Source: a virus. From it: a stretch of DNA of 38,918 nucleotides. Position numbers and translations under genes: made by a program. The stretch spans positions 1 to 38,918 of IMG/VR virus record IMGVR_UViG_3300036792_000103; one strand, 5' to 3'. The notes beneath the pieces were generated by a model. That model made no database searches and was not told the DNA's origin. It saw nothing but the letters and a program-made list of their open reading frames with translations. Positions 1 to 12,046 of the stretch are shown one piece after another (within the stretch, counting starts at the first letter, position 1; every line of letters starts with the position of its first letter).

Positions 1-402
1 CAGGGCAGCAAGCTGCATGTCGGCAACGGCGTCATGGTCGAGTCATCCAAGGCCGTCAAGCCGTGGCGCGAAGCCGTCAAGCACGCCGCCCTGGAGACGT
101 ACAGCACGATGCTGCGCCAGGCCGTAGGCGTCGAGGTCGTCTTCTACCTCAAGCGCCCTCAGGGCCACTACGGCACGGGCCGCAACGCCGCCGCCGTCAA
201 GGACAGCGCGCCCGCGCACCCGAAGGCCAAGCCCGACCTCGACAAGCTCGCCCGCTCGACGCTCGACGCCCTCTCGGACGCCGGCATGTGGAACGACGAC
301 TGCCAGGTCGTAGACCTCCACGTCCTCAAGCGCTACTGCCGCCGCGACCAGGCGCCCGGCGCGACCATCACCATCCGCGAAGTGTGGGAACAGGAACCAT
401 GA
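1..402 (+). CDS. rusA: RusA-family Holliday junction resolvase (5' end outside window)
   Basis: The frame is open from base 1, so the start lies upstream; an internal ATG at 34 is probably not the start, because the residues before it continue the usual N-terminal core. Counting from base 1, the motif KPDLDK (D79, D81) and WNDDCQVVDL (D99/D100) match the acidic catalytic residues of RusA, a Mg-dependent endonuclease that resolves four-way DNA junctions during phage replication and recombination. The 133 visible residues are close to the full family length. The stop overlaps the next start (ATGA), so it is cotranscribed with the clamp-like gene. Family assignment is firm; the role in this phage is inferred from the family. 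Confidence 0.88.
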   Translation, partial: QGSKLHVGNGVMVESSKAVKPWREAVKHAALETYSTMLRQAVGVEVVFYLKRPQGHYGTGRNAAAVKDSAPAHPKAKPDLDKLARSTLDALSDAGMWNDDCQVVDLHVLKRYCRRDQAPGATITIREVWEQEP

Positions 403-1184
403 GACTCGACCTCTTCACCAGCGACTGGCACAAGTTGCTGAAGCCCGTGCTGCCGCACGCGTCGACGGACAAGGAGCTGCACTGGCTGCGCCGCGTCCGC
501 CTCGAGGTCGGCGACCGCGCCCTGTACGCCATCGCCACCGACCAGTCGACGCTAGGCGCAGAACGGCACGTGCTCCCCGCTCGCGAGCGTTTCCAGTCGT
601 CGTCCGTGCCGCCCGTGCACATCGAGGCGGCCGAGGCCAAGACCTCTCTGGCGCTGTTCACCTTCGACAAGGACGGCGACCCGCCGCTCGAGGTCACCAT
701 CGACCGCGCGCCCATTCCCCTCGGTGAGGGAAACTCGGTCATGTCGTGGGCGGTCACCGTTCACCGTCCTGACGACGGCATGCGCCTGGTGCTCCGCGAC
801 CGCCGCGACACGGCCCTGCGTACCACCCTCGACGGCTGGCGCAAGCTCCTGCTCGAGGCGCTCACGCGACCACGGGGCCGCTCGCTCGACGGCCTCGACC
901 TGCGCGGGCACGTCCTCGCCCGCTGGGCCGCGGCGACGCGCGGCACTGAGCGCCTGCGCCTCTACACCGGGCCGAAGCCAGGCGACCCGCTGCTCATCAC
1001 CGTCGAAGGTCACTTCGCCGGGATCATGACCGTCTCGCAGTACCTCGACACGCCCGCGCAGGGCCGTGCGGAACTGCCGTGGACGGCCGAATTGCTGCCA
1101 GCCGGAATTACGCCGGACGGCGAGCATGCTTTCAATTTGGCCACTGCCTCGGGTGTCGTGACCGGGGATGACGGCACCGAATAA
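399..1184 (+). CDS. Sliding-clamp-like (DnaN-like) protein, tentative
   Basis: A 261-residue protein whose ATG overlaps the rusA stop. The N-terminal stretch with ALYAIATDQSTLGAER (about residues 46-61) resembles the ATD segment of bacterial beta clamps, and the C-terminal part with DPLLITVEGHFAGIMTV resembles the clamp end that closes a domain and forms the polymerase-binding pocket. It is shorter than a bacterial DnaN (about 370 residues), so it could be a reduced clamp or a distant relative. Its place between a resolvase and a replication-initiator-like gene fits a DNA-replication role. The call rests on motif resemblance only; otherwise it is a conserved phage hypothetical. Confidence 0.45.
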   Translation: MRLDLFTSDWHKLLKPVLPHASTDKELHWLRRVRLEVGDRALYAIATDQSTLGAERHVLPARERFQSSSVPPVHIEAAEAKTSLALFTFDKDGDPPLEVTIDRAPIPLGEGNSVMSWAVTVHRPDDGMRLVLRDRRDTALRTTLDGWRKLLLEALTRPRGRSLDGLDLRGHVLARWAAATRGTERLRLYTGPKPGDPLLITVEGHFAGIMTVSQYLDTPAQGRAELPWTAELLPAGITPDGEHAFNLATASGVVTGDDGTE

Positions 1185-1214: not shown

Positions 1215-1931
1215 ATGCCCTGGGTCCGCTTCGATGACCAGTTCCCCATTCACCGCAAGGTGGACGGCTTGTCGGATGCTGCATACCGCCTTCACACCTC
1301 GGCGATCTTCTGGTGCGCGCGGAACCTCACAGACGGTTTCGTGTCCGAAGACGATCTCGACGGCGTGACAGCGCGGGTGCGAACGCCGGCACGCTTCGCC
1401 TCCGAGTGCGTGAAACGGGGTACCTGGCACGAGGCACGGTTCGACTGCCCCTCGCCGAAGTGCGCCGCGCCGGTCGATGCAGACGGATGGGTCATCCATG
1501 ACTACATGGAGTACCAGCCGTCGAGAGAGCAGGTGCTGGCCGACCGGAAAAAGGCGGCCGAGCGCCAGGCGAGGTGGCGCGAAGCCAAGGCGGGCAAGCC
1601 CGGCAGTAACGCTGTGACACGCCCTGATATGTCCGAGAATGACCCGATTCATAACGGGAGCACTAACGGCGTTACTAACGCTGTTAGTGCATCTTCCCCG
1701 CCCCGCCCCGCCCCGAAGGAAGCGGGGCGGGCTGCGCCCGCCCCGAGCGCGCCGAACGGCCGAGCGATCCCTGCGGGCTCGCCGTCCGGCGGGAGACCAG
1801 ACAACCAGTCCGTGGTTGCCGCCCTGCGAAACGCGATCGAACCCGGGCACCGTGCCGCCTCGTACGGGGAGAGCCATCCCGCCGCCGACGCGGCACGAGC
1901 CGCCATGGCCGCCAAGCGGAAGCCGCCGTGA
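1215..1931 (+). CDS. Replication-initiator-like / helix-turn-helix DNA-binding protein
   Basis: A 238-residue protein with a good Shine-Dalgarno AAAGGAG at about 1199-1205. The N-terminus (MPWVRFDDQFPIHRKV, then DAAYRLHTSAIFWCARN) is typical of the winged-helix domain of actinophage replication initiator or replisome organiser proteins. Residues 100-130 are rich in Lys, Arg and Glu. The remaining third is a Pro/Ala/Ser-rich, probably disordered tail. The DNA at 1607-1688, inside this gene, contains a cluster of TAACG repeats and palindromes, as expected if the protein binds an origin within its own gene. It shares a 4-nt overlap with the zinc-knuckle gene. The DNA-binding assignment is reasonable; the initiator role is inference. 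Confidence 0.55.
   Translation: MPWVRFDDQFPIHRKVDGLSDAAYRLHTSAIFWCARNLTDGFVSEDDLDGVTARVRTPARFASECVKRGTWHEARFDCPSPKCAAPVDADGWVIHDYMEYQPSREQVLADRKKAAERQARWREAKAGKPGSNAVTRPDMSENDPIHNGSTNGVTNAVSASSPPRPAPKEAGRAAPAPSAPNGRAIPAGSPSGGRPDNQSVVAALRNAIEPGHRAASYGESHPAADAARAAMAAKRKPP
1607..1688 (+). repeat. TAACG repeat and palindrome cluster inside the initiator-like gene
   Basis: TAACG occurs at 1607-1611, 1652-1656, 1664-1668 and 1676-1680, with the inverse CGTTA at 1670-1674. TAACG-G-CGTTA (1664-1674) is a perfect 11-bp palindrome, and ACTAAC-GCT-GTTAGT (1674-1688) is a 6-bp inverted repeat with a 3-base spacer. The patch is clearly more AT-rich than its surroundings. It may be a binding array for the encoded protein (iteron-like origin); this is inference. 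Confidence 0.45.
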
Positions 1932-6044: not shown

Positions 6045-6529
6045 TGCCCCGCATGCCCACCTTCGAAGAGATCCGGGACGACTTCGAGCGCGGCGTCCGC
6101 ACCGCCGAGCAGCGCATCGAGCACCCGTTCCGCCACCACGCCGCGCAAGCGGCACCCGAGCCCCCGGCTGCCATGCCGGCCACAATGGCAGCAGCGACCG
6201 CTGCCGCCCCGCAACAGGAGGACACCATGTCACTCGCAACCCTCGAAGACGACTTCCGCAACGGCGTCGCAGCCGTCAAGAACGAGATCGGCAAGTTCGA
6301 GCAGAGCATCCCCGGCCTCGTCGCCGACGCGAAGAACCTCGCCGGCAGCCCGCTTGGCCAGCTCGCCATCACGGGCGCCGAGCACGTCGCCTCCGGCGTC
6401 CTGCCGCCCGAGGCCCTCGCCATCGTCGAGAGCGGCGCCGTGGACCTCTACAACAAGATCCTCGGCCTCTACAGCCCGCAGGGCGCCCAGCAGGCCCCTG
6501 CCGCGCCCGTGGCCGTACCGGCGCAGTGA
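6044..6529 (+). CDS. Hypothetical protein with internal duplication and possible second start
   Basis: A 161-residue protein. The N-terminal unit FEEIRDDFERGVRTAEQRIE (residues 7-26) and a later unit LATLEDDFRNGVAAVKNEIG (about 64-83) look like copies of one helix, joined by an Ala/Pro linker. An in-frame ATG at 6227 has a near-perfect Shine-Dalgarno (CAGGAGG at 6215-6221) and would give a 100-residue product starting at the second unit, so two proteins may be made. The C-terminal half is helical (AKNLAGSPLGQLAITGAEHV) with an Ala/Pro tail. Followed directly by a strong hairpin. Function unknown. Confidence 0.65.
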   Translation: MPRMPTFEEIRDDFERGVRTAEQRIEHPFRHHAAQAAPEPPAAMPATMAAATAAAPQQEDTMSLATLEDDFRNGVAAVKNEIGKFEQSIPGLVADAKNLAGSPLGQLAITGAEHVASGVLPPEALAIVESGAVDLYNKILGLYSPQGAQQAPAAPVAVPAQ

Positions 6530-8697: not shown

Positions 8698-8937
8698 ATG
8701 AGCGTCCGCTACTGGAGCCTGTTCAGCGACGAGCTGATGCAAGGCGACCTGCGATGGCCCGACGGGCTACGGCCGGTCAGGCAAGGCGAGGCAGAATCCA
8801 GCGCCTTCCCGGGGGCGCGCTGGTGGCTGCTTGAGGACGACGGCGCGCCCGCCACGCTCGAAGGCAAGCGCGTCGAGCTCACCTTCACCCGCAGCGGCAA
8901 CCGCGCCATGATCGGCAGCCGGAAGCCCGCGATCTGA
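8698..8937 (+). CDS. Small hypothetical protein, copy 1 of a duplicated gene
   Basis: A 79-residue protein, ATG 8698, Shine-Dalgarno GAGGAGG at 8687-8693. It begins RYWSLFSDELMQGDLRWPDG and ends WWLLEDDGAPATLEGKRVEL followed by NRAMIGSRKPAI. A closely related gene lies at 20914-21153 in the head-tail module; the C-terminal 45 residues are almost identical. Compact fold with paired Trp. Function unknown; the two copies in early and structural regions may differ in timing. Confidence 0.72.
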   Translation: MSVRYWSLFSDELMQGDLRWPDGLRPVRQGEAESSAFPGARWWLLEDDGAPATLEGKRVELTFTRSGNRAMIGSRKPAI

Positions 8938-9728
8938 TGGCCTGGCAGAGGTCAGACGCCGAGCGCAAGGCCGAGAACGCCTTCTACGCCGACCCGGTGT
9001 ACCGGCGTAACCGGGAGGTCGTCAAACGGCGCGCAGGCGGACGCTGCGAGCAGTGCGGGCACCGGCACCCCACCCAGTGCGACCACGTCATACCCCACGC
9101 CCAGGGCGGCTCGCACGCTGTGGAGAACCTGCGGATGCTCTGCGCAGGCGAAGGGACGTGCAAGTGCCACGAGGCCAAGACCGCCCAGGAGGGCAGGGGG
9201 TACCGCAACCCCACCAGCCGGACCGCACGCGACCCTGCGCCGCGGCCTCGCACGAAGTGGTTAGCAGGCCGTCTGTGCGCCCCGGAATGTCGGACCCGAC
9301 CAGGAGAATCGACAAGTGCCCTACAAGGACCCGGCCATGCAGAAGGCGCAGCGCAGGAACCGCGACCACGTCAGGCGGTCGGCAGTATCCGACATTACGG
9401 CCGCGCAAGAACTGGCCATGCGGGCACAGGCCCGCGAGTGCCCGCTATGCGGCGCCTCGCTGACAAGCGAGCCGAACCGGCCCGACAGCAAGCACCTCGA
9501 CCACATCATCCCGCTCGGCATCGGCGGCACGCACACCCACGGCAACGTGCGGATCATCTGCTTCACCTGCAACATCCGCCGCCCGAAGGACGGCAGCGAC
9601 TACTCCGGACCCGTGACGCTTTGGGCACAGGGACCCCCGCCGGCCAGGCCCGACCAGCGGCGCAACCAGGCCACGTGCAAGAAGGGGCTGCACCCGTGGG
9701 TGCCGGAGAACATCCATGCCGAGAGTGA
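8937..9728 (+). CDS. HNH endonuclease 1 (genuine part probably 8937-9260)
   Basis: Residues 1-95 form a clear HNH nuclease: CxxC at 37-40, CDH at 48-50, N64, and CKCH ending at H78. HNH proteins near phage terminases often support DNA packaging or act as homing nucleases. The frame runs to 9728 (263 residues), but after residue 108 the composition becomes Arg/Pro/His-rich, and it overlaps HNH endonuclease 2 by 413 nt. An in-frame TTA at 9261-9263 sits where a stop would be expected (after RPRTKW), one of only two in-frame TTA codons I saw in the window. I infer a lost stop or a sequence error; the functional domain is intact. Confidence 0.75.
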   Translation: MAWQRSDAERKAENAFYADPVYRRNREVVKRRAGGRCEQCGHRHPTQCDHVIPHAQGGSHAVENLRMLCAGEGTCKCHEAKTAQEGRGYRNPTSRTARDPAPRPRTKWLAGRLCAPECRTRPGESTSALQGPGHAEGAAQEPRPRQAVGSIRHYGRARTGHAGTGPRVPAMRRLADKRAEPARQQAPRPHHPARHRRHAHPRQRADHLLHLQHPPPEGRQRLLRTRDALGTGTPAGQARPAAQPGHVQEGAAPVGAGEHPCRE

Positions 9729-10032
9729 CGGCAGGGAGCGTTGCGCGGCATGCCGAACGGACGGGGAGCGCGCACGCAGGCCGCGACGCGCACGCCGCGC
9801 CACCATGAAGCAGTGCGGGTGCGGGGCGATGTTCGCCGCCCCGGGCAGGACCGCCATGTGCCCGGAGTGCACCGGCCACGCGGCACGCAGGGCTGCCGAA
9901 CTGCACGCCGCTGGGATGCCATGGAGTCAGGTAGCCGATCAGGTTGGCTACAGCAGCGCCGAAGGGGCACGGTACGCCGCCAAGCGCATCGGGTACACGC
10001 CTGCCCGGCCTGCCAGCCGCCACGCGGCGTAA
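9316..10032 (+). CDS. HNH endonuclease 2 with C-terminal zinc/HTH region
   Basis: A 238-residue protein starting at GTG 9316 with Shine-Dalgarno AGGAGA at 9302-9307. The HNH core is residues 40-92: CPLC (42-45), LDHI (61-64), HTHGN (73-77) and CFTCN (82-86). A second Cys set follows (CKKGLHPW, CAAC), then CGCGAMFAAPGRTAMCPEC and a possible helix-turn-helix (MPWSQVADQVGYSSAEGARY) near the C-terminus. The architecture suggests a sequence-directed nuclease acting at or near the terminase or packaging site. Last gene before the terminase. Confidence 0.85.
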   Translation: MPYKDPAMQKAQRRNRDHVRRSAVSDITAAQELAMRAQARECPLCGASLTSEPNRPDSKHLDHIIPLGIGGTHTHGNVRIICFTCNIRRPKDGSDYSGPVTLWAQGPPPARPDQRRNQATCKKGLHPWVPENIHAESDGRERCAACRTDGERARRPRRARRATMKQCGCGAMFAAPGRTAMCPECTGHAARRAAELHAAGMPWSQVADQVGYSSAEGARYAAKRIGYTPARPASRHAA

Positions 10033-10094
10033 TCAAGAAGTCCAGTGAGGCCCCCGTCCCAGGGTCTACCCCGCCATGCTTCCCCCTCCCCTAG

Positions 10095-10138
10095 CCTGTG
10101 GATAACGCAATTTGTCACGCTGCGTGACCTGTGGATAA
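10095..10138 (+). promoter_or_regulatory. Two DnaA boxes flanking a 15-bp palindrome (candidate origin)
   Basis: The 120-bp gap 10033-10152 separates convergent genes. It contains a direct repeat CCTGTGGATAA at 10095-10105 and 10128-10138; TGTGGATAA is the exact complement of the consensus DnaA box TTATCCACA. The boxes are 33 bp apart, about three helical turns. Between them GTCACGC-T-GCGTGAC (10114-10128) is a perfect inverted repeat. This could be an origin using host DnaA; alternatively the palindrome is a bidirectional terminator between the two converging units. The box matches are direct observation. Confidence 0.6.
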
Positions 10139-10152
10139 TCTGGCCGGTCGTT

Positions 10153-11784
10153 TCAGGCGACGATCATCCTGATCCGCGCCCGCTTCACCGCGGGGATGGT
10201 GAGCGCGAGCTTGACCGCTCCGGCCGCGGCGTAGGCGGCGTCGACGTGCCCGCCTCCGCCCTTGCGGGTAAATCTCCAGCCGTCGCCGCTGTTCAGCTTG
10301 CTCGCAGCCCGCACGTGGGCGTCTAGCAGCGGGTCTGCGGGGTGCACGACGCGCAGCGCCCGCGCCAGGTCGGCGAGTTCCTGGCACGCCTCGGTGACCC
10401 TGGCGCCGGTAATCGCCCCGTCCTCGGGCACGTCGCCGGGCTCGCGCTTGCCGCCCGGGCGCTTGTTGTAGCGGATCGCCAGCGGCCGGAGCGTGGTGGC
10501 GATGCCCGCGGCCGGGCCTGACGGGTACCAGCCGAACGCGGACGGCTTGATCTCGGCGAGCAGCGCGGGCAGCTCGGCGCGCGCGGCCTCGGTGGAGTCC
10601 CAGGCGGCGGTGATCTCGACCCTCGGCCGGCCGTCGGCGAGCGTGGCGGCGACGGCGAGGGTGGCGTGCTTCCCGTCGGGGGCGACGTCGAGGCACGCGG
10701 CGATGCGCCCGCGGTGCGCCTCGAGGGTGCCCGTGACGTCGGCGCAGTTGTCCCAGCTGGCGTGGTCGATGGCGGCGTCGAGGTTGGCGACGCGCTGGCA
10801 CATGACTTCAGTCCGGAAGATCTCGGGCGGGTCCTGGCCGAGCGATGACCGGATGGCGGCCTCGCTGACGCCGTCGGTATAGCCGAGGGCGGGGTTGGCC
10901 TGCGCCCAGGCTTCCTCGTCGTCCAGCTCGCAGCCGTCGGGGGCGCTGTACTCGATGAGGCAGAGCGCGGGATCGGTGCCGGCCCGCCCGGCGGCCTGGA
11001 GCTGGTTGAGGACGACGGAGGTGTCGTCGCCCGCGTTGGACATCGCCCAGACCTGCCCGTTGCGGCGGGCCATGGTGGTCTTCGACAGTGACCCCCAGGC
11101 TTTCCAGTCGTGCTGGGTGCGGAGCTCGTCGATGTTGACTTCGTCGTTGCTGCCGCCGCGGCCTGCCTTGTCGTTGGTGGCCTTGATGGCGTAGCAGCCG
11201 GTACCTGCCCAGAACATCTCATCGCCGTTGACGTTCCGGACGTCAATCCACTCTTCTTGCAGGTCAGGGCATGTGTGGATGGTTTCCTGGCACATCTGCC
11301 ACTGCTTACGGGCCAGGGAGAGATCCTGTGCGGCGCCGACGATTTCCCTCGCGCCGTCCATGTACATGCGCCAGAGGGTGACGACGCGCTTGAGGTGGCT
11401 CTTGCCGTTCTGGCGGGCGACGATGATCAGGACGGTGCGGAAGCGGTAGGTGCCGTCGGGGTTGAGCTCGAGCGCGTGGATGACGGCCCACTTTTGCCAG
11501 GGCAGCAGCGGCTGGCCGATCATCTCGGCGAACTCGATTACCTCGTAGCCGCGGCTGGTCCTGCGGTTGAGCGGCCGCAGCGGCCGGGTCCACAGCCGCG
11601 GCTCGGTGCGCCCGGTGAGCGGCTTACGGCCGGGGCCGCGCTTGGCGGGGTTCTGCGGGCTACCCGGCTTGTGGTCGGGGCAGCGCTTGCGGCCTGGGGC
11701 GGCTAGCTTGCGGCAGCCGGCGAAGCTGCAGCGGCTACGCTTCGCGCGCTGCGCGGAGCTTGGCGAGGCCGTTTGGCTTGGCAT
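10153..11784 (-). CDS. terL: Terminase large subunit
   Basis: A 543-residue packaging motor. ATPase: Walker A ARQNGKS (123-129), Walker B EVNIDE with D219/E220, and coupling motif MSNAGDD (248-254). Nuclease domain: CLDVAPDG with D366, and HVDAAYAAAG with D515 near the C-terminus. Length is normal. Unusually, the first 40 residues carry a Cys/His cluster (C19, C24, C35, H38) before the ATPase, probably a small zinc finger that could contact DNA or the small subunit. It is encoded on the strand opposite to the head genes. Its start lies within the preceding minus-strand gene (50-nt overlap), so the two are translated from one message. Confidence 0.93.
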   Translation of the reverse strand: MPSQTASPSSAQRAKRSRCSFAGCRKLAAPGRKRCPDHKPGSPQNPAKRGPGRKPLTGRTEPRLWTRPLRPLNRRTSRGYEVIEFAEMIGQPLLPWQKWAVIHALELNPDGTYRFRTVLIIVARQNGKSHLKRVVTLWRMYMDGAREIVGAAQDLSLARKQWQMCQETIHTCPDLQEEWIDVRNVNGDEMFWAGTGCYAIKATNDKAGRGGSNDEVNIDELRTQHDWKAWGSLSKTTMARRNGQVWAMSNAGDDTSVVLNQLQAAGRAGTDPALCLIEYSAPDGCELDDEEAWAQANPALGYTDGVSEAAIRSSLGQDPPEIFRTEVMCQRVANLDAAIDHASWDNCADVTGTLEAHRGRIAACLDVAPDGKHATLAVAATLADGRPRVEITAAWDSTEAARAELPALLAEIKPSAFGWYPSGPAAGIATTLRPLAIRYNKRPGGKREPGDVPEDGAITGARVTEACQELADLARALRVVHPADPLLDAHVRAASKLNSGDGWRFTRKGGGGHVDAAYAAAGAVKLALTIPAVKRARIRMIVA

Positions 11785-12046
11785 CTGGTGTCTTGCCGGT
11801 CTTCGTCATGGCGGCCCTTGCCGCGGGGGTGGCGCCGAGCTCGGCGAGCACCTTGAGCAGCTCGGGCCCGAGCCACCTGATGGCGGCGGCGTAGGCCTTG
11901 CCGGGGGGTGCCTCGTCGATGGTGCGGGCGTACTGGACGGCGAGCTTGGCGGCGGCGCCGTCTTTGCCGTCGCGGTCGATGTCGAGGCTCATGACGGTGG
12001 CGTAGACGGCCGGGTAGAGCAGCTCGCTCGCGTCGCGCAGTGCCAT
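11735..12046 (-). CDS. Putative terminase small subunit / conserved pre-terminase protein
   Basis: A 103-residue protein directly upstream of terL on the same strand, with a perfect Shine-Dalgarno GGAGGTGA ahead of its ATG. It is helical: ALRDASELLYPAVYATVMSL, then KLAVQYARTIDEA and RWLGPELLKVLAELGATPAA, and ends in a basic tail (NGLAKLRAAREA). Size, position and overlap with terL fit a small terminase or packaging partner, but no helix-turn-helix is obvious. The call is mainly contextual. Confidence 0.5.
   Translation of the reverse strand: MALRDASELLYPAVYATVMSLDIDRDGKDGAAAKLAVQYARTIDEAPPGKAYAAAIRWLGPELLKVLAELGATPAARAAMTKTGKTPDAKPNGLAKLRAAREA

Follow-up and report, generated by a model that had tools for sequence, protein, structure and literature searches.

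DnaA-box pair beside a palindrome at the probable cos site of an environmental tailed phage

The window analysed here is the whole 38,918-nt stretch of one IMG/VR virus record (IMGVR_UViG_3300036792_000103), which represents an environmental tailed phage, probably of a high-GC actinobacterium. The region of interest is the gap at positions 10033-10152. It is bounded by two convergent genes, an HNH endonuclease gene on the plus strand and the gene for the large terminase subunit (TerL) on the minus strand, with the small subunit gene (TerS) and a second HNH gene nearby (Table 1). Orthologues of this second HNH gene adjoin the equivalent gap in relatives. The TerS-TerL pair (10153-12046) is inverted with respect to the portal (12674, plus strand) and capsid genes, and the 3' end of TerL faces the gap; the inverted orientation is common to many relatives. 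The gap DNA has no similarity to named phages, and no TerL relatives were found in bacterial genomes. The first-pass annotation had read this gap, lying between convergent operons next to the terminase, as a phage origin that recruits host DnaA, with no phage helicase or primase visible. Its view of the genes around the gap was accurate. Its view of the replication genes was incomplete, as the window encodes a replication initiator (rep), whose product shares 33% identity with actinophage RepA-like initiators, and a RusA resolvase.

Table 1. Positions of genes and sequence features in the window.
Feature	Position	Strand	Basis
RusA resolvase	3-1184		
Replication initiator gene (rep)	1215..1931	+	phrog_2447, E 2.3e-32
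Candidate origin inside rep, 12-bp iterons	1607..1687	+	lowest-GC 60 bp; TAACG pairs rep-specific
Conserved HNH endonuclease (end approximate)	8937..9290	+	PF01844; alignment
HNH endonuclease adjoining cos	9316..10032	+	PF01844, E 5e-7
cos core (GGGGAGGGGGAAGCAT, GGCGGGGTAGACCCTGGGACGGGGGCCTCACTGGACTT)	10038..10091	-	kept between TerL and HNH in ~25 relatives
Predicted cut point, strand end after base 10076	10075..10076	-	contig ends of six relatives
DnaA box 1, proximal (TTATCCACAGG)	10097..10105	-	exact match
Palindrome GTCACGCTGCGTGAC, cosB-like putative packaging element	10114..10128	.	22 bp from G-block
DnaA box 2, distal (TTATCCACAGG), abutting palindrome	10130..10138	-	exact match
TerL, large terminase subunit, 3' end toward cos	10153..11784	-	phrog_9, E 6e-68; PF03354
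TerS, small terminase subunit	11735..12046	-	PF23931 Terminase_6, E 8e-14

Two exact copies of the DnaA-box word TTATCCACA lie in the gap in the same orientation, 33 bp apart from start to start. Each is embedded in an 11-bp direct repeat, CCTGTGGATAA, and the 15-bp palindrome sits between them, exactly as the first-pass annotation described. The window has no other exact box and a single one-mismatch site, at 9119. A sequence of 38.9 kb with the same composition is expected to contain 0.02 exact boxes under a first-order Markov model or 0.004 under a second-order model, and the chance of a same-strand pair within 45 bp is approximately 2e-7 or less. The pair is thus as improbable by chance as originally claimed. 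A functionless chance word followed by a small tandem duplication would fit the finding that the cos gaps of most relatives have no boxes. However, we consider this extremely unlikely given the expected counts, the recurrence in the relatives G011 and L079 described below, and the fact that the two copies are alike over the 11-bp box only, with different flanks. The two words are very probably genuine DnaA boxes. A plus-strand σ70-like promoter match (TTGTCA..GATAAT) at 10112-10139 shares bases with both the palindrome and box 2 and is directed antisense into TerL.

To place the gap in its family, TerL relatives were gathered from IMG/VR (26 loci, later 77). Approximately 25 relatives share a block between TerL and HNH with the layout GGGGAGGG(GG)A, ~20 nt, CTCTG, ~16 nt, CTGGACTT. 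Independent contigs of six of them (L006, L008, L011, L168, L188 and L194) all terminate at one column, precisely 16 nt past the block's first G, and those of three more (L017, L158 and L199) stop within a few nt of it. Since diverged contigs should not otherwise all stop at one column, this suggests that the gap contains a real DNA end, of which contig ends reveal one side only. The isolated Arthrobacter phage Chridison (Korravirus), with a TerL 41% identical over 72% of the query, has a similar end. Its deposited genome starts with GTGTCCTCTCCCTCCCC, which places the physical end 17 nt after the GGGGAGGG block on the opposite strand, with the terminase on the block side and HNH at the other genome end. 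Unlike the window, Chridison has a different gene orientation, and no DnaA box is seen at its end. With six contig ends at one column and the Chridison genome end at the same block, we conclude that the gap is almost certainly the phage cos site.

The arrangement resembles the HK97-type cos (gp1/gp2/gp74) in that TerS, TerL, cos and an HNH gene lie together, here in the order TerS-TerL-cos-HNH with two HNH genes, and in that the recognition DNA is on the terminase-gene side of the cut. In HK97, the HNH protein gp74 stimulates cos cleavage (PMC9410871) and the TerS site is located 15-29 bp from the cut (PMC11331095). The window differs from HK97 in its inverted TerS-TerL pair, with TerL ending toward cos, and in carrying both a 15-bp palindrome ~38-52 nt from the cut and two DnaA boxes. 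Box 1 is located 14 nt before the G-block and 21-29 nt from the predicted cut.

The palindrome keeps its place relative to the G-block across the family. When the best match to GTCACGCNGCGTGAC was sought in the 130 bp before the block, it was found 21-28 bp away in approximately 20 of 35 divergent phages, and random stretches taken from these contigs give far poorer matches (combined p ~6e-23, uncorrected for relatedness). Given this fixed spacing from the G-block, the palindrome appears to be part of cos, and a role as an origin element was dropped. By position it is a packaging element belonging to cos, putatively recognised by terminase. The first-pass annotation had also raised the possibility that the palindrome is only a terminator. 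No terminator-like site (a GC-rich hairpin followed by a T-run) is present in 9900-10300 and the gap folds no better than shuffled sequences, and the reading as an intrinsic (bidirectional) terminator was rejected. Convergent genes separated by a gap without such a terminator could still be served by a transcription roadblock, formed by DnaA or by the palindrome between the HNH and TerL operons. We regard this as very unlikely, as the palindrome and core are fixed relative to cos rather than to gene ends, both boxes face in one orientation, and in the relative L003 this core and palindrome are both found upstream of an HNH gene.

Two further patterns were seen among the palindromes. The cos palindrome and the rep iterons both contain a GTNAC half-site but differ in its spacing (GTNAC-N5-GTNAC in the palindrome, GTNAC-N3-GTNAC in the L003 iterons); in the window, the sequences compared are 10114-10128 and 1652-1687. 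Additional palindromes (TGCATA..TATGCA, TTCGAA and GTAGGTTTCCTACA), possibly operator-like, are present on both sides of cos in L079, L001, L018 and L123.

Comparison of the gap among relatives, as the first-pass annotation proposed, gives a different picture for the boxes: the cos core and palindrome are kept, but the boxes are absent from most relatives. Within the family, exact boxes in the cos gap are found in the window (two) and in G011 (one, between TerL and cos, 224 nt from the core) only. None was detected in the cos gaps of approximately 20 other relatives, and the distal box 2 is absent from relatives' gaps. The close relative L079 has a near-box, TTTTCCACAGG, at the position of the proximal box. 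L001, with a TerL 92% identical to that of the window, has the same cos block but has lost the proximal box (now GTTTTAGG), and there is no exact box in its 53 kb. A search for the cos-plus-box arrangement with a G5 run returned L079 and three chance matches only. As close relatives have no boxes, these appear to be dispensable for cos as such.

It is conceivable that the TTATCCACAGG repeats are instead sites for a phage packaging protein (TerS or HNH) and form part of cosB, in which case their likeness to DnaA boxes would be coincidental. The palindrome of cos has one copy of the direct repeat on either side, the distance of the proximal repeat from the cut is near that of the HK97 TerS site (PMC11331095), L079 keeps its near-box at the proximal position, and TTATCCACAG adjoins a G-block and TerS in unrelated phages (see below). 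Nevertheless, we find this explanation improbable, because initiator genes distant from cos hold clusters of this 9-mer, and because it is missing from most relatives that share the core and palindrome, including L001.

The association of the 9-mer with initiator genes is strong. In 16 records (597 kb), TTATCCACA occurs 10 times, compared to a mean of 0.35 for 1680 words of the same composition, and only trinucleotide-repeat words rival this count. Initiator genes or their immediate surroundings account for seven of the copies and the TerL-cos gap for the other three. Across 23 loci with a phrog_2447 initiator, nine copies are inside rep (19 kb) versus one in 157 kb of flanks, and the lone flank copy is 58 bp after a rep gene. 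G002 has a box pair inside an initiator of a different family (phrog_2149, E 8.5e-21), and L003 has boxes at 6085 and 6269 around 12-bp iterons (6176-6220) beside rep. No exact box is present in rep of five isolated actinophages with RepA-like initiators. Since the gap boxes are not explained by chance and the same 9-mer marks relatives' initiator genes, host DnaA binding is the best reading of the sequence, and we consider it likely that host DnaA binds the gap boxes.

While this part of the original proposal holds up, the gap itself is a poor candidate for the phage origin. Its conserved content is that of a cos site, which L001 keeps without a box, and the phage has its own initiator gene with iterons. 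Within rep, positions 1652-1687 hold three tandem 12-mers (TAACGGGAGCAC, TAACGGCGTTAC and TAACGCTGTTAG), and TAACG appears a fourth time at 1607. The window reaches its minimum GC over 60 bp (0.47, at 1627-1686) in the same place. TAACG pairs with 12-bp spacing occur 13 times in the rep genes of 24 relatives and 0 times in the surrounding 167 kb. The gap does contain a cluster of boxes, as DnaA-dependent origins do, but no iterons are found beside them; in the window, 12-bp iterons occur at 1607-1687 only, 8.4 kb away. For RepA-type mycobacteriophages, the origin has been inferred to lie within repA or immediately upstream of it (PMC7157519). Because rep carries iterons at the lowest-GC place of the window, the gap boxes are probably not the main origin, and the iteron array is the likelier candidate.

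A rep gene with iterons is also a feature of origins that use both Rep and DnaA (P1 oriR, pSC101 and R6K), and the iterons of some relatives are flanked by boxes (L003) as in those origins. The array inside rep likewise resembles the lambda origin inside gene O. Unlike in these systems, the iterons and DnaA boxes of the window are 8.4 kb apart.

The gap could alternatively be a second or moved replication origin at which DnaA, perhaps with the phage initiator acting in trans, opens the DNA, so that origin and cos coincide. Identical exact boxes mark relatives' initiator genes, and there is one box locus per genome: L003, L202 and G010 have boxes in or beside rep, while the window and G011 have them at cos and none in rep. 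The rep box pairs of L256 and L431 are also spaced by 33 bp. In addition, the gap is within the 0.5% lowest-GC stretches of the window (60-bp GC 0.52-0.53), and the cumulative GC-skew minimum is at 10456, beside the gap. We nonetheless judge an origin in the gap to be unlikely. The iterons and the lowest-GC stretch are in rep, and the gap has neither iterons nor strongly AT-rich DNA. TAACG-iteron rep genes in this set have no DnaA box, suggesting that this origin type may not need them; rep genes with boxes carry other repeats, for example of the GACGCGTC type (by eye). The GC-skew check proposed in the first-pass annotation did place a minimum beside the site, but the minimum is also near cos in the box-less relatives G001 and G003. 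It therefore gives no support to the boxes forming an origin, and GC skew is not a discriminating test here.

Boxes near packaging sites are not limited to this family. A scan for TTATCCACAG followed by GGGGAGGG within 24 nt identified 104 viral contigs; as the scan is conditioned on a box near a G-run, it demonstrates recurrence rather than frequency, and its counts are not an unbiased census. Many of the matches are intergenic, just upstream of terminase genes, in phages unrelated to that of the window. In one group, the G-run is followed at 76-94 nt by a P27-type TerS (phrog_83, E 2e-20 and 7e-9). P27-TerS phages and Stenotrophomonas prophages (L334, L378, L395, L453 and L460) have in common TTATCCACAGAAA..CTGAACGAAAGGGGAGGG...CGATACGCGCGCCCCCC just upstream of TerS, and this shared element is probably another cos with a DnaA box. 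In a second group (33 loci), 3-7 same-orientation boxes are followed by a TerS-like gene, so labelled from its position and sequence character with no family match, and then by TerL (phrog_2, E 9e-45). Further boxes in this group number 86 within 250 bp of the site versus 9 in 268 kb elsewhere. Two of the 33 loci (L363 and L385) have no extra boxes and are apparently P27-type sites caught by the loose motif. Phages with such arrays (L388, L325, L342, L354 and approximately 30 more) have 40-50% GC, and their 3-7 copies of TTATCCACA are arranged head-to-tail with a G-rich run, upstream of the TerS-like gene and TerL.

A search of genome contigs for a box with a G-run returned P27-type cos copies (Stenotrophomonas), a multicopy element of Actinokineospora and Streptomyces, and chance matches. 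The multicopy actinobacterial element, TTATCCACAG..CCTTCGGGGGAGGGGGTCC..CTGGGCCTGGGGACGCCCCCCGGGACAGGG, is found in Actinokineospora globicatena (L438, L443, L448, L455, L464, L470, L476 and L477) and in Streptomyces (L446, L449, L466, L467 and L482). Record P483 has five boxes near a packaging gene.

The Shigella phage VB_Ship_A7, a T7-like Berlinvirus, has four same-orientation copies of TTATCCACA inside its 177-bp direct terminal repeat (L488 1-177 and the end of L490). Like the window, it carries the boxes at its packaging end; it differs in having a T7-type terminal repeat, an unrelated terminase and a low-GC genome. T7-like phages are not known to require DnaA for replicating their own DNA, which argues that boxes of this kind need not be origins.

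Taken along the minus strand, the order of elements is TerS, TerL, DnaA box, GTCACGCAGCGTGAC palindrome, DnaA box, GGGGAGGGGGAAGCAT, cut, ..CTGGACTT, HNH. By homology with HK97, TerS/TerL together with the neighbouring HNH nuclease would cut the concatemer here after recognition of the core and the palindrome, and cos would be the site of both packaging initiation and termination. The host-DnaA boxes would overlie the recognition side of cos as an accessory, as close relatives do without them. Bound DnaA may modulate the use of cos by blocking terminase, by assisting architecturally or by marking replicating DNA. On balance, we favour a role for the boxes as a DnaA accessory of cos, although the boxes of relatives accompany initiator genes, which favours a role in replication. 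A more far-reaching and tentative idea, which we think unlikely, is that host DnaA has a direct part in packaging or end-processing in several unrelated phages, with boxes or box arrays at cos sites, terminase-proximal regions or terminal repeats tying terminase action to the replication state of the host or of the DNA itself.

While cos sites and DnaA boxes are each textbook elements, we found no report of DnaA boxes at cos sites or terminal repeats, or of the two elements interleaved, in the open-access literature searched. The iteron array in rep provides a defined, testable candidate origin for this phage group. If DnaA binds the gap, a host replication protein would touch a phage packaging signal, and the recurrence of boxes in unrelated phages, including in a T7-like terminal repeat, makes this question testable in E. 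coli.
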